Below, piece after piece: positions 42,184-57,897 of a DNA stretch of 64,000 nucleotides. Position numbers and translations under genes: made by a program. A model generated the notes under the pieces. The model saw only the letters and a program-made list of their open reading frames with translations, made no database searches and was not told the origin of the DNA. Each line of letters begins with the position of its first letter. The first letter of the stretch is position 1. Source of the stretch: Branchiostoma floridae. Taxonomy: Eukaryota; Chordata; Leptocardii; Amphioxiformes; Branchiostomatidae. The stretch spans positions 7,771,626 through 7,835,625 of the forward strand of contig NC_049995.1 of NCBI RefSeq assembly GCF_000003815.2. Reading direction: 5' to 3'.

Positions 42184-45100
42184 TTATTTGTCTTCATCAT
42201 GGCTAACGCCCCTGTTGACGTTTGCGGTCATCACGGCGACAGCATCCAGACGACCGAGAAGCTCCAGACCTTCCGTGATCTTTCTCGCGGCTTCAAACTT
42301 ATCCACCTAGTATTGATACAAGGAAAATTTTAGGAAGGTCATTATCACATCCGACAAAAGAAGAGACCAAAAATGTCCCATGTCTAGTTCGGAGCGAACC
42401 TTAATCGTAAACACACCCAAATAAACAAAGTCGAAGAATTCACAGAAATGTCTATAGCTAGTCAACAGACCTACTGATATATCTACTAGTAAGTATAAGA
42501 ATAGGTTTTTATATACCGATGGTCTCTTTCTCGATTCAATATGTTGCACGTTCAGAAAGGCCTATGAATGGAGAGTTTTATGAAATTTCCTCATTGATTA
42601 TGCAAATTAGATTCGGATTTGCATAACTACATCTAATTATTTCAAACATCACAAGTTATCTACATAGAAATCATAACGACTTCCCAGCCCTTTTTGAGTC
42701 ATTCTCTTTCAAATTGTAAAACTAACCTGGCTCCTGAGGTTAGAAAAATCCACCAGGGACCCGCCAGGGACCCGCCAGGGACCCAAACCTACACCACTTA
42801 GTCTCAGTCTTTACCACTCAAAAATCACGAGCATAGCATGTCAAGAACTCCAGATATCAACACAGGAATTTCTACTTCAGTTACGTAACAAGTCGCTAGA
42901 AATTTGATAATTTCACGGTGTTATCGGGACCTACCAATTACACATACCAATTACACATACCAACTATCAAATTCCATCCATCCATTCAGGCCTTCTAGGG
43001 TTATGCTGTTATTCCCCCTCCTACACACTATACCAAAAACATGCATAACCTTTTCACGGAGGTAAATGTAATTTGACAGTGAAGACTCACCTTGGTTCCA
43101 TAGTCGATGAGAAGCGCCATTGTTGGACTTTCCGTCCGTTGGAAGTTGAGGATCTCCGTCACTCCGTAGCCCAGATGATCGGCGAGACCCTTCCAGTCGT
43201 TCCCGAGGACTCGCGGGGGGTCCAGCAGGAGGGCGAGCTGCTGGATGTGGGAGTACTGCAGCTGGGTCTGAGGGCGGGACCTGCGGCTCACTAGGGGAAA
43301 CGTACAGCAGCATACTTAGTACTGAATGAAACACATTAGTTACGCAAATGAGGTCCCTATTTACACTAAGTGAGCTGCTGAATGTGGGAGAACTGCAGCT
43401 AGGACTGAGGGCGGGACCTGCGGCTCACTGAGTGAAAAGTACAGCAATATACTGAACGATACACATAAATTACGCAAATAAGGTCCTTATTTACATATGG
43501 CGAGCTGCTGCATGTGAGAGTACTGCAGCTGGGTCTGAGGATGGGGCCTGCGGTCCTCTACGGGAAAAGTACAGCAATATACTTAGTTTAGCACATCAAT
43601 TACGCAAATAAGGTACTTATTTACATAAAGCGAGCTGCTGGATGTGGGAGCCCGAGGACGGAACCTGTGGCTTACTAGGTGAAAAGTACAGCAGTATACT
43701 AAACGAAACACATTGATTACGCAAAGAATGTCTTTATTTACATAAAGAGAGCTTTTCATGGAGATAACAAGAAAAAATTGTACAGGACGTACCTGCAGTA
43801 CTCATTGCCCGCGCGACCTGGTGCTCTCGTCCGCAACACAGGAACATCAGAGGGTGGCTCTCATTCGGGAACATCTCCCCACTTCCTGCTAACTTCAGCA
43901 CGTGGATTCTCTCTGGTTCTGTGTAGTCCGAATGTGGTGCCTCGAAGGGACAGCAGACTCCACTGGTGTAGGACATGTTCGGGAAATCCCTGCGCCGAAT
44001 GGCCTCAAGGATGTCGTGTAGCATCCCAAGCAGGTCAAAAGGATTGCTTCCTGTTGCTGACGTCACAGTTATCTTCAGAACGTTTTGGTCAGGCGCTGGT
44101 CTCATCGGCTCAATGGTGAACCAGAAACGGTTGGCCACGTTGAAGCACCCCACGTTTCGGAAGACATGGGTGCGCGTGTGCGTTTTCTCCTTCACCTTAC
44201 ACAAGGCGAGGCACCTTGCGACGACTCTGGTGTACACGACGTCGGGGTTGAAGGTCTCAAAGTCGATGTAAAAGATTTGATCATCGTCGCCGTGCCGTTC
44301 CGAAAGGCTGCGATGCAGCTTGGGGTTGTATTCTGGTAGCCGGCTAGGTACAAGATATGTTGTGTGACCAGGGTCACAGTCGGCCTCCTCTCCTAACGGA
44401 CACAGCATGTCGTAAGCAACAAGCAGCTTCAGCAGTACGGAGGGCTCGTCGATGTTGAGTTGGGCAACCGCGCTATGGATGAAGTCGGAGCGAACGATTC
44501 CCTTCTTTTCGAGCAGAGTCAGATGTTCGACATACTTGGGCATCCCAATGTGAGTCGGTTGTGGACAGGTTATCTTGGCCATGGCATCCACAAGAAGCTG
44601 TGGGTCCAACACAACGTAGTTCTTCAAGGTTTCATCATTTCCTTGGTAGATGATGTCACCAGCCTGGTCGAAAGTCGTCAGTACATCGTAGAATTCTTCT
44701 TCGTTTTCCAGGCCAATTTGAGAACACTCTTGTCGTAGGTTATCCAAGGAAATGATGGGTTTTTCTGTACGCTTCATGACTTCTAAGAACTTCAGCCATC
44801 TGATGGGAAGTTGCCTGCGTACGTAGTTGGCTTGCTGAGTCATGGTCCATATGGCGTCGCGTAGACAGATCATGTCCTCATCAACGGGCTTCGAGTTCTC
44901 GACGGGAAACAAGGGCGTGTGGTCGGCATTTAGAACAAGCAGGGAAGAAAAGCAGGTTGATCTGTACAGGTTCTTAGAGAGAAACGTGGCGACATCTTGC
45001 CTTTGGAGTGAAGTCACGCTGTCTCGGTGTGTTCCCACCAGAAACACTGCGCAGTCCTCACTACTGGCGTGAGTCTTCACAGAATGAAGCCAAAACAGTA

Positions 45101-48100
45101 GGCGTTCCAGCGTTCTGTTCTGATTTCGGACAGCTTCAACCAGACTGAACACGAGTAAGTACACTGCCTCGTGGGCGAGGAAGATGTGGTGCATACTGTA
45201 GTACTCCTCGTCACCAGCGAAGTCCATCAACGTCAGGTTCGTTGGGAACGACTGCGCCCCATTTTCTTTCTCTCGCATGGACTCGTCGATCAGTGTGACA
45301 GGAATGCTCAAGTAGTATTGGTAGTACTGGTAGCATTCTATAAGCAATAGTGCCATAGCAGTAAAGACAGCAACGTAAGAAATATTGTCAGCGGGTGTCA
45401 GGTGCCATCCAGCAGCGAGACCGAAACACAGAGAGAGTAGCACGCCTCCAAAGACCTCACCACAGCATTTCAGGTACAGATGTCGGACTGGCACCATCGC
45501 CGACAAAGCACGACCTGTTACCAGACCAAAGCAGGTTCCAAACCCCGCGCAAAAGCCGGAGTATAGCATAAGGACGGTTTCCGGTATACGATTGAAAGTA
45601 CTCAGAGCAATAATGACAATAAAGAGGGACAGATAGGTTTTACCAGAGAACTGTCACTGTGCGAAAGGGTGTGATTTCCGGACAAAGTCGGAGTTGACAT
45701 ATTTTTGGACATGCTAAATATTCGGACTGTGTCCGGGCACGATGTTCAATATTTCCCATATCTGGAAATATCATGAGTCAGGAATTGTCTTGTTATGTAT
45801 CCGGACAAATAAGACTTTCCTGCTTTTCAAGATACGCGCCATTGACGTTTCTTGCCTCCGAATACGTGATATGTTCTACATTCTTTACATATCCAAGGTC
45901 CATATATTTCGATAAGGAATGCCCGGACAAATTAGGAGTTTGCACGAAGCATGATGTGCATTATTTCTGGGCCATTGTCATATGACATTTTCAATTCATT
46001 ATGTCTCAGAATATCATGAGTCATGAAATGTTTCAGCACATGCCCGGACGGATAGAATTTCCCGTTCTTCCGAATACGTGTCAGGGACGTTTCATGTTTT
46101 CGAATTCATACTATTTTCTTTTCTTTCCATTTACGAGACATATCCGCGACAGATATTCCATGGATTAGTTTTAGGACAGATTCGAAGTTAGCATATTCTG
46201 ACCGTTACCGATAAAGGTATTCTATACGTGAATTGTGAATCGGTGATTGTTTTATTGCGCATCTGAACAAATAAGACTGCATTTTTTTGCCGAAATTTTC
46301 GCTCCTTCCGAATTCATATTCCGTTCCATTTACGACAGATGTCCAAAACAGAAACATTCCAGAGATCAGTTTTCGGACAACTTAATGGTTAACAAATTAC
46401 TTTTCTTGTCATACATGAATCTGAGATTGTTTTGTTGGGTATCCTTAAAAAGGTTTCCTATCTTGTCAAATACACGTCATTAACGTTTTTGCTTCTGTAT
46501 ATTATTCTACAACGAGTATGCCCGATGTCAATGTATGTTTACACTTTAATTTTCTGGTAATTGAAGCTTAAGCTTCCATATACATGTGCAAATATACTGA
46601 CATCGACATTTACAATCAAATGACACAGAAAGTAATCTTTGCGATGGTAACAATTATGAGTCAAGTATTATTGTTTCTTTGCATATCCGGACAATATCTT
46701 GAACAAAGTTCAGTCAAAACACTCCACCCCAGCGGTGCAGTTTGGGATAGGTCCATATCCGGACAATATCATGAATAAAGTTCAGTCAAAACACTCCACC
46801 CCAGCGGTGCAGTTTGGGATAGGTCCATATCCGGACAATATCTTGAACAAAGTTCAGTCAAAACACTCCACCCCAGCGGTGCAGTTTGGGAAAGGTCCAT
46901 ATCCGGACAATATCTTGAACAAAGTTCAGTCAAAACACTCCACCCCAGCGGTGCAGTTTGGGATAGGTCCATATCCGGACAATATCTTGAACAAAGTTCA
47001 GTCAAAACACTCCACCCCAGCGGTGCAGTTTGGGATAGGTCCATATCTGGACAATATCTTGAACAAAGTTCAGTCAAAACACTCCACCCCAGCGGTGCAG
47101 TTTGGGATAGGTCCATATCCGGACAATATCTTGAACAAAGTTCAGTCAAAACACTCCACCCCAGCGGTGTAGTTTGGGATAGGTCCATATCGGGACAATA
47201 TCTTGAAAAAGTTCAGTCAAAACACTCCACCCCAGCGGTGTAGTTTGGGATAGGTCCATATCCGGACAATATCATGACAAAAAGTCACTCATGATATTGA
47301 ATACCAGCGTTGCTGTGTGGGAATGGTCCATATCCGGACAATATCACGAGGCAACTTTACTCGTAAAGCGGTTATGCAAGCTGTGCAAAGTGCCGAGCAG
47401 ACCAGTACGTTGGCATGTCAACGGTGCGCCTACTGGGGCAGTCGTTGCAGATAACAGCCTACACCGCGCCACAGCGTTTGCTGCTGTGTACAACTTTGAA
47501 ACTGGTAAGTACATGATGCATTTATTCACAAAAATAATGCACAATACCACGTGTTTCCGTGAAACAGGCATGATGGATGACACTAACTTGCTTGGAACCA
47601 TCTGGAGGAGTCCTTAGGTAACAAGACTATATTAGGAAGTCACATGACTTGACTAGACCAATAGTAGACCAGCTGGTGACAGCAGTTAGGTTTGAAACTA
47701 GATTTGAATCTCAGCCGCTGCCGCTAGCCGCTACCGGACCAAGAAGTGAGTAGTGTAGCTCTCTAGTACATAGATTGTATATACATAGCAGTTACCGTTC
47801 TTAGTTCCGTATATGTCTGTCAGCAATGTCTGTTATCCCTTCCTAGTGTTTTGTGTATTTAATGATTAGTAGTGTGATCTCTTTGTAAAGATTGTTGTAT
47901 GATAGATCACTTCTCTTTCAGCTGGAACCCCGCGTGTCATCCCCGGCTTGTTTACAAATTGCCCGTTCCATAGTTAGTTAAATTCTCATATTATTTTGTG
48001 CTGTATGTGCCGTAACGGCTGCTTCTAAACTTTCCTGTCCTGTTGTTTTGGCTGGCTAAATCTTTAATAGAACCAAGGAGAAACTGTAATCTCCTCACTA

Positions 48101-51100
48101 GTACCAATGTGATTGTGTGCATATAAAATTCCATTCGTTCTCTGGGGGTCCTTATAAAAAAGCGAGAATCTATTGTACAGTAACAGACCGACTTGTTTAA
48201 CTTGTATATTATAATTACACTATGTCAATGCGGCATTTATGTTCACATTCCTGTACTATACATGTATGTAGTTATAGATCTTAGACGAGTCATTGTATTG
48301 ATTGACTTATCACCGTTGCCTTACAATTGTACCATGTACAAATGTCGTGCAATAAAGTTCATTCATTCATTATCATGTGCCATCTGTGTGGCCCGCGCCC
48401 TTTGATGATAGCCGACTCCAGATTCCTGCCTTTGTCCCCGTCTTGTCCTGCTGTGATTTTTATGGCCGTGTTGTTTGAATAATTTTACATGTACCGTTCA
48501 TGGGTTCGGGGCAGTTACTAGCCGTTTTTTTTCCATTCCAGCCGCTGAGCCTCTGTTTCCCAATCGCCTGTCCTGCCATGCCGACGACCGAGGCCTACCT
48601 CCTGGTAACACTTACGACAATCTGTGCCCGTAACCGTTGTATCCTGCCAGAACTGTTTCTACTCTGAAGACGGACGGTGCCTGGACTATGCAATGGAGCG
48701 GACTGTCCTCGAGACGTGCCGTCGATATTGCGGGGTCTTGCCAGAGCATCTTCCGTCGCCAATGATCGTCCACTACCACAAAGACGCAGAAGAGGGCGCC
48801 CCGGACGATGATTCCAGATTCCCAATGATATCAAGCACGTCACCGGAACGTACTGCGCCTGCGCAAACCCTGGTAGTTTGGGGCTTGGTTTGGTCAACGT
48901 TGCATTAAAATCCCGCTTGTTGCACAGTATATGTTAGAGACATGGTTTCGTGTAAAACGTACACGGAGTTTTACGCTTATATACGCACGTACTTTCTTAA
49001 ATGCGGCCCTTTAGTAAACCGGGAGTTTAGCATGTCTATACTTTTCGCGCAGGCGCAGTACGTTCCGGTGACGTGCTATGATATCACAATGGAATGAACT
49101 CTCGCGAGATCTCCACTCGCGTGAGTTTATGACATGTGATATAACTCCCCCTCTATTCACAAGTGAATCATGAGCCGCACGAACAGGACGTTGCCAAGCA
49201 GAGCTCCTGTAGCGCGGTACCAGCCATGTGCAAGCCGGTGACATCTTTTACTTCTGGGAACGTATCTTGCCGGCAGCAAAGGACTGAGTAGTTTCCTTTG
49301 GCGTTAGTGTCACTAACCTAGAAGGTACGCAGTATTGCCTTGCCGCCTTATGGCGTGTTCTGGAATTTTCGTTTGGCGGTCTGTTTCCCGCGCTTTGGCG
49401 GGACAGTGTTCTCAGTGCAGAGACATTTTGCTGTCTGAATTTCGTTTTATTATTCTGTGAATTTGTTTGCTCACCTTTCCTAAGGCGTGCAGCTTGTGTT
49501 TTAGAGCATATTCGAGTTTTCAAATGTTCCTTCTGATACTCGTGTCATTTATGAGTGGAATTTGCATCTGTATGTGGAGCGCACGTGTTCGGGTGCGCAG
49601 GTGAGATTGATTCAACTTAGCGTGGTTAACTTGGCTTCGGATGCATTGTGATTTCCTTGTTTGTTTGTTTTTTCGCATGAGTTAGGTATTCAGACAAGGC
49701 TGTATCACCACCAGGACTGCCGTAATCCTTGTTTTCTCGCGCAAGGAGCCTAATGGAGCAGAACAACACTGAACTAATCACCGAGGGCCTGGAGGAGCAC
49801 CTGACATTCCTCCCCTGACGACAGTAGTGGTTAAACTTATTACTGACACCGCTGTGGGTGAGTTAAGCCATTTTTTGGAAACTTTGGGCAGTCGTCAAAG
49901 TGGTGGTCAGTGTTTTTCTGTGTGTGCCGAAGCGCCATGTTTCGGGTAGAGTTGCCTGATTGGGCTGCTCTCGTTTTAGCAGTGTTGCTTGTCTGTTTTA
50001 CCGTACAATTTTGCCATGGTTTTCTGTGCTAGGCCAGCATTTCTGCAATCTGTGGAGCAGTCAACAGCCCGGAAAGTGGTTGGACCAGGCTCAAAGACTT
50101 CATTACTCGGGCAGTAGTCAACAATTTGCAGCGGTGATTCCAAGTTGACTGTGATATCCTTTCTGAAAGTGTTTGTTTTTGCACTTCAGGTTGTCGGACA
50201 GTCTGTACGCTAGTAAGAGATCTTTTAACCGTCGTGAACTCGTGATGTTTCTGTTTTCTCAGTAATTTTTGCCGCGATGACGTAACATGTGATGTGCCCT
50301 TCTTCCAGTTTACCAGCTCCTGTCATGCTGATCGGCGGGGCGCAGTTCGGGGCGGGTCGCAGGTCTGCACTAAACCGGCGTTCTCTCCACCACAGCCCCT
50401 GTCGGGCTGATCGGCGGGGAGCAGTTCGGCACTAACCCGGCGTTCTTTCCTCCCCAGCTCCTGTCAGGCTGACTAGCGGGGAGCAGTTCGGCACTAACCC
50501 GGCGTTCTCTCCTCCCCAGCTCCTGTCAGGCTGACTAGCGGGGAGCAGTTCGGCACTAACCCGGCGTTCTCTCCTCCCCAGCTCCTGTCAGGCTGATCGG
50601 CGGGGCGCAGTTCGGCACTAACCCGGCGTTCTCTCCTCCCCAGCTCCTGTCAGGCGGACTGGCGGGGCGCAGATCGTTACTAACCCGGCGTTCTTTCCTC
50701 CCCAGCTCCTGTCAGGCTGATCANNNNNNNNNNNNNNNNNNNNNNNNNNNNNNNNNNNNNNNNNNNNNNNNNNNNNNNNNNNNNNNNNNNNNNNNNNNNN
50801 NNNNNNNNNNNNNNNNNNNNNNNNNNNNNNNNNNNNNNNNNNNNNNNNNNNNNNNNNNNNNNNNNNNNNNNNNNNNNNNNNNNNNNNNNNNNNNNNNNNN
50901 NNNNNNNNNNNNNNNNNNNNNNNNNNNNNNNNNAGCAGCACCGTCGGACGGTGTGGTACAGTAATTTGTGTTTATTGTATTTGCTGTTGGACAGCGGCAC
51001 CGTCGGACGGTTTGGTACAGTAATTGTTGCATATTGTATTTGCTGTCGGACAGCGGGCACCGTTGGACGGTGTGGTACAGTACATACATCGTGTATGTTG

Positions 51101-54100
51101 TATTTGCTGTTGGACAGCGGCACCGTCGGACGGTTTGGTACAGTAAATTGTGGCATATTGTATTTGCTGTCGGACAGCGGGCACCGTTGGACGGTGTGGT
51201 ACAGTACATACATCGTGTATGTTGTATTTGCTGTTGGACAGCGGCACCGTCGGACGGTTTGGTACAGTAAATTGTTGCATATTGTATTTGCTGTCGGACA
51301 GCGGGCACCGTTGGACGGTGTGGTACGGTACATACATCGTGTATGTTGTATTTGCTGTTGGACAGCGGCACCGTCGGACGGTTTGGTACAGTAAATTGTT
51401 GCATATTGTATTTGCTGTCGGACAGCGGGCACCGTTGGACGGTGTGGTACAGTACATACATCCTGTATGTTGTATTTGCTGTGGGACAGCGGCACCGTCG
51501 GACGGTTTGGTACAGTAATTGTTGCATATTGTATTTGCTGTCGGACAGCGGGCACCGTTGGACGGTGTGGTACAGTACATACATCGTGTATGTTGTATTT
51601 GCTGTTGGACAGCGGCACCGTCGGACGGTTTGGTACAATAATTGTTGCATATTGTATTTGCTGTCAGACAGCGGGCACCGTTGAACGGTGTGGTACAGTA
51701 CTTTGTTGTATATTGCATTTGCTGTCGGACAGCGTGGCCGCCGGACGGTGTGGTATAGTATATGACTGTATGTTGTATTTCCTGTTGGACAGCGGCACCG
51801 TTGGACGGTGTGGTACAGTACATGGTTGTATATTGTATTCGCTGTCGGACAGCAGCACTGTAGGACGGTGTGGTACAGTACATACATGGTTGTATGTTGT
51901 ATTCGCTGTTGGACAGCGGACTCCGTCGGACGGTGTAGTACAGTACATGGTTGTATGTTGTATTCGCTGTTGGACAGCGGCACCGCCGGACGGTGTGGCA
52001 CGGTACATACATGGTTGTATGTTGTATACGCCGTTGGACAGCGGCACCGTTGGGCGGTGTAGTACAAGTACATGGTTGTATGTTGTATTCGCTGTTGGAC
52101 GGTGTGGTACAGTACTTTGTTGTATCTGGTATTTGTGGTTGGACAGCGGCACCGTTGGAGGGAGTGGTGCAGTATATGACTGTATGTTGTATTTGCTGTT
52201 GGACAGCGGCACCGTCGGACGGTGGGGTGCAGTACATGGTTGTATATTGTACTCGCTGTGGAACAACGGCACCGGTGGACGGTGTGGTGAGATTGTTGGA
52301 CAATCGTGTAGAGAATTCGTTGTTGGACAGCGGGGTGCGTCAGACGGTATAGTGGATTTTCGCTGTAAGACAACGGGCGCCGGTGGACGGTAATCGTAAC
52401 TTTGTTTGATTTGAGTCGGTGTTTCATTTGATATGACGACAGGTTGTTGGACAACCTCAGATTTTGTTTGGTTTGTTGCATGGTTGGTGAACAAATCCAT
52501 GGTAGGTAACAAACCGTACGGTAGTACAGTGAAGACCTACCTTGTTGGACAGGTCAGAAGTAAAGGTCAAAGGAATGGAGGACACAATGGGAACAATGGA
52601 ACTTCGTTTGTCACAATTAGATTGTGACCTTGGACGACATGCAATTTTCGATAAGGTCCGCAGCGTCTGCACGGTAATGTTGGATGGTGATTTTACCGTT
52701 GACTGAACCGGTGTTTGCGTTTCTTGTTATGCAAGTTTGGAATAAAGACAAAGATCTTGACGAGTTTCTCGTGTCACATTCCTTCCTACCATTGGATTTT
52801 CTGTGTTCCTGTTTATTGGCTACCTTTAGCTGGCCTAGTTCTCACTCGTGGACCGTGTTCAGCTCCCTTAAGCTGTTGCCACCCATACTGGCTTCGGCCT
52901 GGTGGTCCGGGAAGCGAGTGGGGCCTGTCCAGACTGAAATACATAGAACTGTGCGTAAAGGTCGACAGTTACAGGTTAGATACGGAGCAAGCATTGTGGT
53001 GATAGCTTTCTCTGCAGCTGGAATATTGTTCTTGTATACGCAGAGAAATCAATGTTTGATTTCCAACACGACGCAGGATGAGTTGAACTACTGTAAACCT
53101 GGGAGAGGTTGGTCTCAGGTAATCTCTAAGGGTTCTCTATCTAATCGGACTGGTCGTCGACCATTCCGCTGAGTTCGGATTGGACAGGTCCCACTCGAGC
53201 CGGACCTTAGGCGCCCAAGGAACTTAGCTGAGAACCAGGGATCAATCTGCATTCCTGAGGAACACCTAAAGACTGATGACTGTGATAGTCTTACACCCAC
53301 CCTGTTGATAACAACAAGCATGCGCAGCAGACCATAGGGGATGCTGCTGTGTTGTCAAGGTGGCTTAATGCATACGTAGAGGGTTTTGTACGGAAAGGCA
53401 CAGAGGTGAGGGAGTAAATATAAGGGATTGGGGTAATGAAGACAATAAGGATTGGGAAAAGGGAATGGAGAAGAATAAGGATTGGGAGAGGATTAAATGA
53501 AGGGAAATGTAGGAACTTAAATTAGGGGAATAATGGCACTCGGGAGAAGCGGGTGCCGAGGTCTTCTCACCCCAGTCCTTAACTCTCCACTGAGGCAACG
53601 TGAGTGGGAATATATTATGATTCCCAATGATATCACAATGGAATGAACTCTCGCGAGATCTCCACTCGCGTGAGTTTATGACATGTGATATAACTCCCCC
53701 TCTATTCACAAGTGAATCATGAGCCGGACGGGAGGGACACAGCCTAGCAAGAGTAGACTAGTCTAGCTACAGTCCACGGTCAGAGGCAATGTAGGTTTCT
53801 AGCGTAGCCGTTTTTCACCAGAGGGATATCTCCGATCTGTGTGGATTATCCAAAGCTCCGAAGTTATATGCAACTACTACCCTACATGCGCTAGATGTTT
53901 GTGTACTGCAGGGACCAGAGTACACGAACAACCAAAGCAAGTAGTCAACTGGTTGTCCCAAAGCCTAAGCGAGAGACCTTCAGAAGATCAATAGCCTACC
54001 GTGGGCCCAATGTCTGGAACAGCCTACCGCCAGACACAAAGAGTGTATGGCTCTTTCTCATGTGGTACAGCAGTCGGAATAAAACCGAGTGTCAGTCATT

Positions 54101-57100
54101 TGGTACTTTGTGTAATAATAGTTGCCATATCATGTACAATTGTCGGGCAATAAAGTTCTGTTCAAGTGTAGGTGTCTTTTCTGTGTTATATCTGAACAAC
54201 AGAGCGCAACACATGATATCAAGTTTCGGAGCAATTCTTCACCTTTTCTGCTGAAGAGGATATTAGTAGATGGGGGGAGCACGGGAAAGAAGTGCAGTCA
54301 AATTTTTAGCCCCCCCACCCACCCACCCCCTAAGTATTTTACGGGTAAGCATGGAATCTCGGATTCCACGATGCCTCGGTCTTCTCACCCCAGTCCTTAA
54401 CTCTCCACTGAGGCAACGTGAGTGGGAATATATTATCAGTCAACACGATACGGACTTATAGAGGACTTGAAAATGGACTGTCGTACTGATTTCGTAATGA
54501 CATTTTTATCCTACGAATATTGATTGTATGGTTTATAACGTTAGACTTGTGTCGGATACTGTACATTTGATATTGTACATTTAAACTGATCAGTTTTGTT
54601 ATGATGTTATTGACTTGGGCTTGATATTATTGGATCTGACAGTGAACTGTTTAACTTTGGCTTCACTCGAGCTTCACTTTTTGTGAAGACCAATGAGGTT
54701 GTAGTGAGCTAAAACTTCCTTGGTAAGACTAAGAGACAAATGCATATTGATTTGCCCCTTGACGTTAACATGATCTGTTCCTCCACATAATGTATTTGTT
54801 GTGATACTTGTGTCATCTGATTTATACAGGAAAGTCTTTGAAAAGCTTTCACAAAATGTAGCCTTACCGAGTTAGCATTTTCGGGGTTAAAACGGACAGG
54901 AAACGCTAAATATTAGGTATTTAGCATGATCGTAAAGTTACTGGATATTCTGAAATAATGTGTTGTATTGTTCCTATGATGTTTCAGTATATCTTAAGTT
55001 TATGCAACCTTTCCGGGGCGTAATAGCCCCGAACGCGCTCAGAAAATATGAAATATTCGGAACGTGTTTTGTCTCCAAAGAGTCCTAGAACGTTCCATTA
55101 CTTGAAATCCGGATATGCGACATGATTATATGGTCCCATTCTTGACTCCTGAAATTATCCGGATTAATACGAAATATTCGGAACGTGATTTGTATCCAAA
55201 GAGTCCGAACACGTTCCATTACTGGAAATCCGGATATGAGACGTAATTATTTGGTCCCGTTCCGGACTTCTGAAATTATCCGGATATATACGAAATATTC
55301 GGAACGTGGTTTGTCTCCAAAGAGTCCGAAAACGTTCCATTACTGGAAATCCGGATATGAGGCAGGAATTAAATGGTCCCGTTCCGGACTCCAGAAATTT
55401 TCCGAAAACGCAGGGGAGTCATGTCAGATTTCGTCCGGATATTGTCCGGATATATCCAGAAACGGTCCCGATCCGGATGTATACAAACATAGAAACGTCC
55501 GGAAATGACACCCTTTCGCACAGTGTATAGGCATGTTGGAAGTCGGTGAGCAAGGAGGCCCCAGTACTGGTAAGTTATAACTCCAGTGGAAAGTCCCGCG
55601 GTAACCAGAGCGTTTGAAACAATCATGTCAAGGTCTGTTCCTAGTTCCGACATAAACCAGGTCCAGGACAAAGCTCGAACACTGAACACTTGAGAAGGAG
55701 AAGACATTAGACAAAGAACGATGCTCATCATTGGTCGAAAACCAAAACCCAAGGAAGCCGCCAGAGGGATGCAAACAAGTGCAAAGCACAGGCCAAGGAA
55801 AGGAAAACATGCTATCCGTCCGAAAACACGCAGACACTCCTGCGACATGGTTTTCAAGGCGAGTGGTGAAACTAAGCAACTTCTAAAAATAAGCGCAACT
55901 GTCATGCCTGTTCCCGTTCTGGTTGCTGTCATCAGATCAGTTACACAAGCCATGAAGACTATGAGAGAAATGAGAGCATAAGCATATCCTAGATTGAGCA
56001 TCAAGAAGACGGCGATGAACTCAACCAACGGAAGAAAGCAAAAGAAAAGAACGTCAAGCGCGACGGCATAAGACATTTTTCCCTCCGTTCCAAAATCTTG
56101 CTGGACTTTACTTTGCCCCGTCATCATAGCAGTGTACCAAGCCGCTCTCCTCTCATACTCGGACTCACGGCGCTGGGCTGGGCTGTGCCAGTGATGGTCT
56201 ATGTCCTTTGTTTCCACCATCTTGGCTTGAATGCCCTCGGTTTTCTCCTGGTTGGGGTCAAAAGGTTCTCCCGTCAGACGCTTCTTCAGACTCGTCTTAC
56301 CCTGCCGAGCATCTCCAAGAAACAGCACCTGTATCAGAAAAATACTAATAAACTAGAGTTCCACGACCCCATACCTTCGCCAAATGATTCTAACCTTTAC
56401 AACTGCTGTATCAATTGTTTGTTATTGATTATGCAAATAAGATTCTCATTTGCATAAATTATATTACTTGATCATCTTCTCCACCAAACAATGGGACATA
56501 CACAATCTATGTAAAAAACGTTTTTAGCACATTTTCTGATAATTTATGCAAATTAGGTAATCATTTGCATAATCAATGTTCAATGATGTTCACCTGTATA
56601 TAACTTGCAAATGCCACAAGTAAAAACTTCCCGTCATTTGCCACAATGCCATTATAGCATTTCCTCATTAATTATGCAAATTAGGTCTTTATTTTGCATA
56701 ACATATCTATCAACATTCTTCTCTTTCTCAGTTACAAATGCCACACGTTGCAATGGAACGGAACGTGTTTTGACGATTTCCTAATTAATTATGCAAATTA
56801 GATTCTGATTTGCATAATTGATACGTAATTATATGAAGCATCACTTAAGCTATGTACATACCAAAAATCATGACAATCCGTCAACTCCTTCTTGAGTTAT
56901 TCCCTTTCAAAATCTGACACTAAACCTGCCCTGCAGTTCCAAAACAAGCCGCTAGGGGGTCCAAACCTATACCTCTTACTCTCGGCATCAAGAGCTATCC
57001 ACCACTTAAAAATCATTGCCGCAGCATGTCCAGAACTCGAAATATCAAACCAGGAAGTTACGCTGCAGTACCATAACTGGCCACTAGGGGGCCACAAATC

Positions 57101-57897
57101 TAATCGTTTTTAGATTTTAACAAGACCTACCTACATACCGAATATTATTACAATCCATCCAGGCGTTATCATGGTCTTCTACAGACATAGAAACAAACAT
57201 ACACACATACACACGCTACCCAAAATATAACCTTCTCGGCGAAGGTAACAAATGGTAACAATGGTAATTTGTCAAACGTGAAGGCTCCTGAGACGTTTAC
57301 AGCACTTGGCGTTATTTCGGTTTTCGTGACAATAATCATCAGGTGTATTTTGCCAGCCAGTAGGTTACATTATGAGTAATGAGGCTGTTTAACGTGATCG
57401 AGGCACCTCCTCGAGCACGGGACCCCGTTTACGTCCCTCCCGGAAGACGATTTTCGTGGAAAGCTTCGTGAGGCTACAGCAATCCGGTCGTCGTTGGTTG
57501 GTCCCCCCCCCCCCTCTCCAAGAACTGACCGGACAGTCGCGTTGCTTAACTTCTGAGATCGACGGATCGGGTGTACCAACGCGCCACGCGGCCCGACGGT
57601 AATGGCGCCTGCAAAATGGCGGAATGTTGACAGTCGGGAGCCCTCATCTTTGAGATATTACTCAGAATTCCTGTCGCATGCGCATGCGTAGTCGAATCTG
57701 CGAAAGACCTTTTACAACAGGATGAATATGATGAATGATATGTTTCTCACCTTTCCCCGGTTGATGGGAAGCTTGCCGTGTATCCTGCCGTACCGGTACG
57801 TGAGATAGGCGGCCTTGATCTTGTCTTCATCCACGTACACACTGCCCGGCACGGGAGCGCCGTCTGCCATGCGGGACTTCCCCCACACCTTCCCCAT
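42184..57897 (-). CDS. Roc-COR GTPase with a membrane-spanning insert in Roc and a C-terminal death domain
   Basis: Coding exons 57,897-57,751; 56,328-55,522; 45,650-43,793; 43,290-43,091; 42,306-42,184 join in phase to about 1,043 residues. The Roc G1 loop is FLGDARQGKTSL (about 54-63), switch-like KTEGI (78-82), G3 TLMDFAGDEEYY (near 461) and G4 LVGTHRD (near 525). A hydrophobic block with 8-10 likely membrane helices separates G2 from G3 where Roc normally has a short hairpin. The COR domain follows (RWLKFLEVM, FDQAGDIIY, VVLDPQLLVDAM, GIVRSDFI, YLVPSRLPEY), then a Cys-containing tail (CCPF, LCCG). Exons 4-5 encode a death domain (VLGNDWKGLADHLGYGVTEI, ARKITEGLELLGRLDAVAVM). Roco proteins are dimeric GTPase scaffolds; signalling from a membrane through a death-fold partner is inference. 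Intron 2 (55,521-45,651) coincides with a transposon, using weak splice sites (GTGCGA, TGACAG). Upstream exons may exist right of 57,897, as CTGCTGTCAG precedes the first ATG. Confidence 0.85.
42560..43060 (-). mobile_element. Partial copy of the AT-rich dispersed repeat
   Basis: Contains TCCTCATTGATTATGCAAAT, CCACCAGGGACCCGCCAGGG and ends with GCATAACCTTTTCACGGAGG, TAAA, the reverse of the left terminus at 31,950. It fills most of the last Roco intron. Confidence 0.6.
43232..43700 (-). repeat. About 130-bp tandem array copying the death-domain exon acceptor
   Basis: Four copies (around 43,240, 43,375, 43,505 and 43,634) of GCTGCTGGATGTGGGAGTAC, TGCAGCTGGGTCTGAG, each followed by the exon edge and acceptor. 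On the coding strand each keeps a CAG or TAG at the exon border (CTAG/TGAGCCGCAGG, CTCAG/TGAGCCGC, GTAG/AGGACCGC, CTAG/TAAGCCAC) with AT-rich intron sequence between. Only the last, 43,290, continues into the complete exon. Confidence 0.85.
46687..47280 (+). repeat. 72-bp tandem minisatellite
   Basis: About eight units starting CCGGACAATATCTTGAACAA, then AGTTCAGTCAAAACACTCC, then ACCCCAGCGGTGCAGTTTGG. The period is a multiple of three, so frames stay open on both strands without coding meaning. It is within the CACTG element. Confidence 0.95.
47300..48540. other. Interior of the CACTG element, weak coding hint
   Basis: On the plus strand 47,345-47,502 is open (RLCKLCKVPSRPVRWHVN, then NGAPTGAVVADNS, NSLHRATAFAAVYNFET) and ends at a consensus donor CTG/GTAAGT. 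The rest is AT-rich; GTGCAATAAAGTTCATTCAT at 48,346-48,366 looks like a retroelement 3' end. I do not recognise the protein. Confidence 0.35.
48542..48823 (+). CDS. Hypothetical cysteine-rich exon inside the CACTG element
   Basis: A strong acceptor (TTTTTTTTCCATTCCAG) at 48,541 opens a segment that, joined to the donor at 47,503, would read ETAAEPLFPNRLSCHADDRG and then stop. After a one-base shift a second open segment encodes VSCQNCFYSEDGRCLDYAM, TVLETCRRYCGVLPEHLPSP. The Cys spacing and codon-like composition look protein-coding, but the frame break near 48,630 and the lack of a recognised family leave it unsure. Possible captured or decayed host gene, or a transposon-encoded protein. Confidence 0.35.
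48834..49077. mobile_element. 244-bp MITE with 9-bp target duplication
   Basis: Near-perfect inverted ends of about 33 bp (AGCACGTCACCGGAACGTAC, TGCGCCTGCGC). Flanked by ATGATATCA on both sides (48,825-48,833 and 49,078-49,086). An empty version of the site, with one ATGATATCA, is at 53,627-53,635. A 9-bp duplication is typical of Mutator-like elements. The ends contain a CRE-like TGACGTG/CACGTCA and an NRF1-like GCGCCTGCGC. Confidence 0.88.
49087..49190 (+). repeat. Direct repeat matching 53,636-53,735
   Basis: CAATGGAATGAACTCTCGCG, AGATCTCCACTCGCGTGAGT, TTATGACATGTGATATAACT, CCCCCTCTATTCACAAGTGA is nearly identical in both places, so part of the element interior is duplicated. Confidence 0.9.
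49200..50285. other. Interior of the CACTG element, nothing recognised
   Basis: No exon, terminal repeat or RNA gene is supported. Short ORFs on both strands lack family features. Confidence 0.4.
50290..50723 (+). repeat. 60-62-bp GC-rich minisatellite
   Basis: Units of GCTCCTGTCAGGCTGACTAG, CGGGGAGCAGTTCGGCACTA, ACCCGGCGTTCTCTCCTCCC start near 50,457, 50,517, 50,579, 50,641 and 50,703. The array runs into the assembly gap. Confidence 0.95.
50724..50933. other. Assembly gap of 210 N
   Basis: N run between two different tandem arrays; the array lengths are therefore underestimated. Open frames that cross it are artefacts. Confidence 0.98.
50934..52400 (+). repeat. Higher-order minisatellite (60 + 64 bp dimer, then monomers)
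   Basis: The monomer is built on GGACAGCGGCACCGTCGGAC, GGTTTGGTACAGTA, TATTGTATTTGCTGT. From about 50,990 to 51,690 two monomer types alternate with a 124-bp period (repeats of GCACCGTCGGACGGTTTGG near 50,996, 51,119, 51,243, 51,367, 51,491, 51,614). From 51,690 to 52,400 the monomers are single and increasingly diverged. Long frames on both strands (up to 586 codons) are a by-product. Confidence 0.95.
52410..53560. other. Interior of the CACTG element, one hydrophobic ORF
   Basis: 52,684-53,172 on the plus strand is open for 162 codons with hydrophobic stretches (LDFLCSCLLATFSW, SIVVIAFSAAGILFLY). No family recognised and no splice context; probably chance. Confidence 0.3.
53565..53735 (+). 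repeat. Repeats shared with 49.08-49.19 kb and 54.37-54.44 kb
   Basis: GGTCTTCTCACCCCAGTCCT, TAACTCTCCACTGAGGCAAC, GTGAGTGGGAATATATTAT recurs at 54,372-54,437. The following ATTCCCAATGATATCACAAT, GGAATGAACTCTCGCG is the empty-site counterpart of the MITE insertion at 48,834. Confidence 0.9.
53885..54165 (+). mobile_element. Non-LTR retrotransposon 3' fragment
   Basis: The frame from 53,895 reads YCRDQSTRTTKASSQLVVPK, then ETFRRSIAYRGPNVWNSLPP. The SIAYRGPNVWNSLPP motif is typical of the extreme C-terminus of non-LTR ORF2 proteins. The 3' end GTCGGGCAATAAAGTTCTGT resembles the one at 48,346-48,366. Confidence 0.75.
55040..55400 (+). repeat. 121-bp subterminal tandem repeat of the CACTG element
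   Basis: Three units (about 55,048, 55,169, 55,290) of GAAATATTCGGAACGTGTTT, TGTCTCCAAAGAGTCC, GAACGTTCCATTACTGGAAA, TCCGGATATGAG. GAACGTTC is palindromic. The units lie just inside the right terminus. Confidence 0.93.
56400..57240 (-). mobile_element. Reverse copy of the AT-rich dispersed repeat
   Basis: Successive TTATGCAAATTAG / TTTGCATAA pairs, CCGCTAGGGGGTCC and CCACTAGGGGGCC blocks, CATACACACATACACACG, and the terminus AAAATATAACCTTCTCGGCG, AAGGTAAC. It is the mirror of the copy at 31.9-33.3 kb and fills Roco intron 1. Confidence 0.75.
57385..57600 (-). mobile_element. 5S rRNA-headed SINE
   Basis: On the minus strand the head reads ACACCCGATCCGTCGATCTC, AGAAGTTAAGCAACGCGACT, GTCCGGTCAGTTCTTGGA, a clear derivative of 5S rRNA (CCCGATCTCGTCTGATCTCG, GAAGCTAAGCAGGGTCG, TGGTTAGTACTTGGATGGGA) including its internal promoter region. 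The body CTTCCGGGAGGGACGTAAAC, GGGGTCCCGTGCTCGAGGAG, GTGCC follows; the same body occurs behind a tRNA head at 35.15-35.34 kb. Confidence 0.8.

Follow-up and report, generated by a model that had tools for sequence, protein, structure and literature searches.

Can the GTPase domain of a Roco protein be interrupted by a membrane module? This question is raised by a gene on the minus strand of a 64,000-nucleotide stretch of the Branchiostoma floridae genome (C17:7771626-7835625, here called the window, with coordinates 1-64,000). A preliminary description of this DNA had proposed a Roc domain that is split by a multi-pass membrane insert and linked to COR and death domains. Searches of the genome (513 Mb, 431 contigs), in which pieces of the window and the latter half of the C1 gene served as queries, yielded twelve related loci: the window gene and eleven others, namely C1, C8, C12, C18, C2 and a tandem group of six on C15 (C15a-f). 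On the sequence, it is nearly certain that the family combines a Roc domain split by a hydrophobic insert with a subsequent COR domain. The reading proposed here, a membrane-embedded Roco switch with death-fold output, was given a probability of about 0.6.

Gene family and domain architecture

The first Roc half of the window gene was located in the minus-strand frame 56352-55516, and the second Roc half together with COR in frame 45650-43734. The motifs followed each other as previously described: P-loop GDARQGKTS at 56316, KTEGI at 56244, DFAGDEEYY at 45221 and THRD at 45029. Their assignment to two exons was not upheld, as a single exon is cut by a transposon (55525-45655, see below). KTEGI and DFAGD were 378 residues apart in the joined model, close to the 380 residues estimated before. 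Pfam matches to Roc (PF08477) were obtained for the first half with 2.1e-6 (positions 2-46) and for the second half with 8.1e-9 (positions 47-119). COR-A matched with 5.2e-13, above the cut-off, COR-B with 0.0026, below its cut-off, and Death (PF00531) with an E-value of 1.1e-8. The profile search for Roc, COR and Death that had been suggested as a check was hence positive for all three.

Eight paralogues on four contigs (C1, C8, C12 and C15a-e) held P-loop, insert, DFAGD, G4, G5 and COR in a single open frame, 934-981 codons long. In C15d, this frame diverged from the other members near the end of COR. C15f was a ninth member with the same order, in an open frame across 426 N. C2 had a frame change and C18 a run of 100 N within the insert. 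The distance from G1 to G3 was 383-407 residues in the ten readable members, with C15f counted across its gap, versus 46-51 residues in ten ordinary Roco genes. The controls were eleven ordinary Roco genes of the same genome, read in sequence and taken from 147 Roc matches (best 150 of 370 candidates scored); L051 and L061 were near-copies, and L051 had an N gap at the P-loop. The contiguous G domain of Roco proteins was not found in the family, and the G1-G3 distance therefore defines a variant architecture of the Roco family. Other Roc genes with inserts may exist, since split matches elsewhere in the genome may hide introns or inserts.

Roc was matched by Pfam in all eight paralogues scanned. 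COR-A was matched at E<=1 in seven of them, with a best value of 6e-5, and two matches inspected in detail were below the cut-off. C12 had no Pfam match to COR, yet was 37% identical to C1 over the second Roc half and COR. No LRR or kinase match was detected in the family frames scanned with Pfam.

A gene-model artefact, in which the architecture is only simulated by two separate genes, by retention of an intron or by a join made in the assembly, would be consistent with the 9.9 kb between the window halves. The frame change in C2, the N runs in the inserts of C18 and C15f and the departing frame of C15d would fit as well. The P-loop, insert, DFAGD and COR were found in one frame in eight paralogues on four contigs, which argues against such an artefact, as do the substitution ratios of the insert in five older pairs (given below). 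Because of the single open frames in eight paralogues, the insert is exonic, and the two-gene or retained-intron artefact was rejected; an artefact of any kind is highly improbable. The objection that the block could be intronic or frameshifted in all relatives, raised with the preliminary description, was contradicted by the same frames. Chance is ruled out, as the same order recurs in the eight paralogues and, across the N gap, in C15f.

A conserved block of about 130 bp was observed upstream of the C1, C2 and C15 genes; no frame was open across the block in the five loci shown.

Position and nature of the insert

A profile of the eight paralogues was aligned with 4wnr, which we take to be a prokaryotic Roc-COR structure. 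Profile positions 3-42 matched chain residues 38-77, and positions 402-453 matched residues 85-136. About 360 profile columns stood where 4wnr has the seven residues of the beta2-beta3 turn. The alignment of LRRK2 to the paralogue profile started at residue 1386, just ahead of the LRRK2 DFAGR. By these alignments, the insert site is the turn between Roc strands 2 and 3, the interswitch, which joins switch I to switch II. This is the position that had been proposed.

The insert core showed a grand average of hydropathy (GRAVY) of 0.90-1.13 in nine of nine members versus -0.20 to -0.50 for the remaining protein, and it stayed high even though the C12 insert was only 20% identical to the C1 insert. 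The hydrophobic stretch of the window gene comprised about 290 residues instead of the 310 given earlier. Hydropathy averaged over six groups had eleven maxima, two of which were only seven residues apart, and was counted as ten helices, in line with the earlier count of 8-10. The two end linkers and the loop joining peaks 8 and 9 carried 5.0, 3.6 and 5.3 lysine and arginine residues, respectively, and the four measurable loops assigned to the far side at most 0.9. This distribution fits an even helix count with both ends cytosolic. The two linkers between the bundle and Roc comprised some 35-45 residues each. An honest range is about eight to ten predicted helices, and the family members are, by prediction only, integral membrane proteins with several transmembrane helices.

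The insert alone had no credible Pfam match: three families were matched at 0.19-1.9 by one member each and were taken as chance, as was a match to a membrane-bound toxin-antitoxin family in one of the eight paralogues (E 0.18). No credible match to a solved structure was found (best E 1.1), and no likeness between the insert halves was detected with hhalign (probability 0.3%). Thirteen of 339 columns were invariant, and only two of these were polar. To look for membrane modules standing alone, the genome was searched with the C1 and C12 inserts, and all matches (10 and 1, respectively) were to loci of the family; very divergent copies would escape, as the C12 insert finds only itself.

A bundle of eight to ten helices is about as large as that of a transporter, and both of its ends are connected to the G domain. 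FeoB pairs a G domain with a transporter. The protein could correspondingly be a regulated transporter, channel or scramblase, in which Roc gates transport by the bundle and the death fold reports on transport. The lack of credible Pfam and structure matches, the scarcity of invariant polar columns and the unlike halves argue against this function, which appears unlikely.

Evolution of the family

A tree was calculated from the columns reaching from just before G3 into COR, outside the insert. All twelve loci were separated from the 11 ordinary Roco rows by one branch (support 100/100); of the controls in this tree, one is represented in 23% of the columns and two are near-copies, and long branches meet. 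A single origin of the insert, apparently in the ancestor of the family, is the simplest reading. Prokaryotic relatives were not confirmed among 586 stretches of prokaryotic contigs, which is a weak negative as two peptide patterns, both outside the insert, were used.

The ratio of nonsynonymous to synonymous substitution rates (Ka/Ks) over nine pairs was 0.23-0.94 for the insert, 0.14-0.43 for the second Roc half and 0.23-0.45 for COR. The insert exceeded the second Roc half in all nine pairs, and ranged from 0.23 to 0.47 in the five older pairs. By these ratios, the insert is coding and constrained overall but fast-evolving, as in receptors, with the switch and COR being kept. Constraint on the insert may be relaxed in young copies.

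The rapid evolution of the insert, the fastest of the large parts, would also fit the loose constraint of a mere anchor. The helices would then fix an ordinary Roco death-fold switch to the membrane, with the usual regulators acting on Roc-COR and the bundle sensing nothing. Membrane association is described as recurrent for LRRK2 in a passage of PMC4104024. One helix or a lipid would suffice for anchoring, and an insert with ten peaks inside the switch would be costly, yet it is present in every member readable throughout. The anchor is accordingly considered a rather improbable explanation.

Death-fold and caspase exons

A Death exon was located downstream on the same strand in ten of the twelve members: the window gene, C1, C8, C2 and C15a-f. 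It was identified by Pfam in the window gene and C15a and by similarity in the remainder. With CARD included, eleven of twelve members had a death-fold exon downstream on the same strand, connected by predicted splice joins. C12 showed a CARD exon (L041:6627-6944, 1.5e-12) where other members have Death, and no Death match was detected in the 9 kb read. C18 was followed by two exons of a caspase domain (Peptidase_C14, 9.5e-9 and 5.1e-19). The first of these lay on the same strand, about 1 kb beyond COR, and GT-AG sites were present (L044 and L063, C18:10463k-10469k). A one-chain path from membrane sensor via GTPase to caspase is possible for C18. Death, CARD and caspase are all part of the apoptosis toolkit. 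The earlier suggestion of a GTPase switch with membrane module and death-fold output was strengthened by the CARD and caspase exons, with GTP binding, membrane insertion and signalling as its inferred parts.

The window Death exon was 39% identical to that of C15a. It covered the first 55 of 86 Death profile positions and then ended in a GT donor. A Death domain at the end of the protein, as previously assumed, was consequently not confirmed. No significant match to the second half of the domain was obtained elsewhere in the window.

Two further observations were made around these exons. Partial repeats of the Death-exon start, spaced by about 124 bp and one of them with a stop, were present at about 43370-43680 of the window (WIN 15025, 15149, 15273). 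A second, degenerate Death-like stretch, ICAQIVTLIDTKHNPTELVVAMF, was found behind C15a, C15c and C2 (C15:12.97-13.01 Mb; C2:0.67 Mb); its L046 and L048 hits were the same places seen from overlapping loci.

Proposed mechanism and GTPase motifs

In the proposed membrane-embedded switch, a bundle of about ten helices (8-10) would emerge from Roc at the tip of its interswitch (beta2-beta3) hairpin. Both Roc halves would be cytosolic and fold together beneath the membrane, and COR, next in the chain, would bring about dimerisation, as it does in other Roco proteins. A ligand, a lipid or a membrane disturbance could alter the bundle, which would pull the interswitch hairpin through the two linkers, in a shift like the 'interswitch toggle' of Arf. 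The shift would alter the nucleotide state; where the G4 aspartate is lacking, it would change only the conformation of Roc-COR. The dimer would then expose the C-terminal Death or CARD domain, or the attached caspase, and recruit or activate caspase-type effectors. For the Arf family, passages of PMC3012027 describe interswitch strands that shift by two residues and a proposed front-to-back communication between N-terminus and nucleotide. Roc-COR is treated as a dimeric switch in part of PMC4104024. Taken alone, the interswitch toggle is a tentative element, with odds somewhat short of even.

Nucleotide binding was assessed from the motifs. G1 was intact in all twelve members, as judged for C2 and C18 from the first of their frames. 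The aspartate of the G4 motif TKxD/THxD specifies guanine. It was present in four members: the window gene (THRD), C18, C12 and C15e.

Several observations weigh against the proposed reading. The G4 aspartate was absent in the other eight members (THSK, THSS, THTN, THKN), and the residue after DxxG was aspartate in all twelve, where the controls had glutamine, histidine or asparagine. Because of these two deviations, GTP switching is doubtful for many members. Nucleotide binding may be loose or absent in some members, and the eight without the G4 aspartate may be pseudo-GTPases or users of another nucleotide. A segment of COR reached a hydropathy peak of 1.82, equal to several insert peaks, and therefore a peak alone is no proof of a helix in the membrane. 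The positive-inside pattern was partial, as two loops assigned to the cytosol had only 0.6 lysine and arginine residues, and the first linker contained as many acidic as basic residues (5.2 aspartate and glutamate). A free-energy scan of eight members, all of them paralogues of the window gene, with approximate parameters and 2 kcal/mol, gave only 5-9 helices per member inside the insert and 0-2 segments outside. AlphaFold2 (AF2) without alignment on two window pieces gave a mean predicted local distance difference test score (pLDDT) of 40 and 48, which is useless as structural support. The insert Ka/Ks of 0.94 in the pair C15a/C15d is compatible with relaxed constraint, too. Finally, the toggle is a feature of the Arf family, and we know of no evidence for toggling in Roc.

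The window copy and its transposon

The two parts of the window gene were separated by 9,871 bp, starting with CACTGTGCGAAAGGGTGT and ending with its reverse complement. These ends formed 29-bp terminal inverted repeats with one mismatch. The flanking 3-bp target duplication was ATA/ACA in the window, with one mismatch, and was perfect in six of six other copies read. Each end of the element was present in at least 40 places including the window (40 scored of 69 and 78 candidates). Among the copies scored, the ends were 99-100% and 95-100% identical, most matches started at the repeat or a few bases away, and the ends paired in 21 cases at 3.6-4.1 kb and in four cases at 2.7-6.9 kb. The window copy of 9.87 kb held tandem arrays (72-bp x9, 62-bp x6, 124-bp x11, 121-bp x3) and an N run. 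CACTA-type transposons have CACT-ended inverted repeats and a 3-bp target duplication, and both features were found in this element. No transposase was matched by Pfam in the eight frames of the element scanned. Removal of one target duplication restored the reading frame (TCL-QFSGKT). By these features, 45655-55525 is a young CACTA-like DNA transposon that was recently inserted into a once continuous exon. An intron at 55.5-45.7 kb was rejected on account of the inverted repeats, the ends found again elsewhere in the genome and the 3-bp duplications. The features of the window locus are compiled in Table 1. The end of the putative first exon resembled the stretch preceding the P-loop in C18 and C12, and this exon had no Pfam match.

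Table 1. Features of the Roco locus in the window
Feature	Position	Strand	Basis
Putative first coding exon, MGKVWGK...KLPINRGK, GT donor, in-frame join to Roc exon	57751..57897	-	Read by eye
First part of Roc exon: beta1, P-loop, switch I, beta2, linker, helices 1 to ~6	55526..56328	-	Roc PF08477, paralogue alignment, hydropathy
DNA transposon within coding exon, 9,871 bp	45655..55525	.	Inverted repeats, target duplication
Second part of exon: ~helices 7 to 10 (predicted), linker, beta3 up to DFAGD	45221..45654	-	Paralogue alignment, hydropathy
Second Roc half: DFAGDEEYY (G3), THRD (G4), to ~COR start	44807..45221	-	Roc PF08477 positions 47-119
COR domain, exon ending at GT donor	43793..44807	-	COR-A 5.2e-13, COR-B 0.0026 below cut-off
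Death exon, AG acceptor and GT donor, phase fits preceding COR-exon end	43091..43290	-	PF00531; sites read by eye

The window copy may be broken by the transposon. Whether it is a dead allele, with only the paralogues working, is a question separate from the function of the family, and the chances were judged to be even. The element sits in coding sequence and is young, as its ends are 95-100% identical among the copies scored; read-through hits a stop about 50 codons beyond the break, and a second, uninterrupted copy of the window gene did not appear in the genome searches. On the other side, the rest of the frame is open, and a GT just inside one element end and an AG at the other would permit splicing out in frame (PTCLYT-FSGKTY, by eye); the window gene may therefore survive.

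Comparison with known systems and implications

By Roc and COR, the family consists of Roco proteins, and their architecture should surprise a specialist. It shares Roc and COR, the P-loop, DxxG and, in some members, THRD with LRRK1/2, MFHAS1/MASL1, DAPK1 and prokaryotic Roco proteins, and its profile aligns to LRRK2 and prokaryotic Roc structures. It differs from them in the long hydrophobic insert within Roc and in the aspartate after DxxG of all twelve members. In FeoB, atlastins and mitofusins, a single polypeptide holds both a G domain and transmembrane helices, the latter outside the G domain, whereas the predicted helices of the lancelet family lie inside it.

KAP NTPases, such as Kidins220/ARMS and PifA, are another P-loop class. 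Transmembrane segments inserted within their P-loop NTPase domain are named in the title of Aravind et al. 2004 (cited in PMC8195603). With helices within a P-loop domain, they are the nearest precedent, known here by that title. The lancelet family differs in that its G domain is Ras-like and is accompanied by COR and a death fold, and the KAP NTPase family was absent from the Pfam matches at E-values up to 1.

Brown algae have multi-gene ROCO families with ROC domains of up to 467 amino acids, one with inserted non-conserved sequence (PMC11378527), and most Ectocarpus ROCO proteins have C-terminal parts like other ROCO proteins or like transmembrane proteins (PMC4104024). The passages from these two sources describe no membrane domain inside Roc. 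TLR and MyD88-like proteins of Aplysia combine receptor or death-fold parts with Roc-COR (PMC9334734), and the amphioxus hybrids TNFR-caspase and LRR-caspase fuse a caspase to receptor parts (PMC2575513). As far as these excerpts describe them, both contain separate domains, none of which interrupts a GTPase. In the partial set of literature searched by title and abstract opening, no membrane helices were described as interrupting a Roc or Ras-like domain.

The family could represent a new class of receptor, although this is less likely than not by a clear distance: an integral-membrane G protein with the sensor bundle serving as interswitch loop of its GTPase, in which membrane events would set the switch without a separate receptor or exchange factor, and in which Death, CARD and caspase would be interchangeable outputs. 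Ras-like switches are usually viewed as soluble domains that are acted on from outside by membranes and receptors. Here, the part of the switch that moves would itself contain the predicted membrane domain. If this is true, one chain would do the combined work of receptor, exchange factor and GTPase, directly linking the state of the membrane to caspase-type death. The family would also be a natural tool for studying how the interswitch moves in Roc, which in the Parkinson's protein LRRK2 is the GTPase domain.

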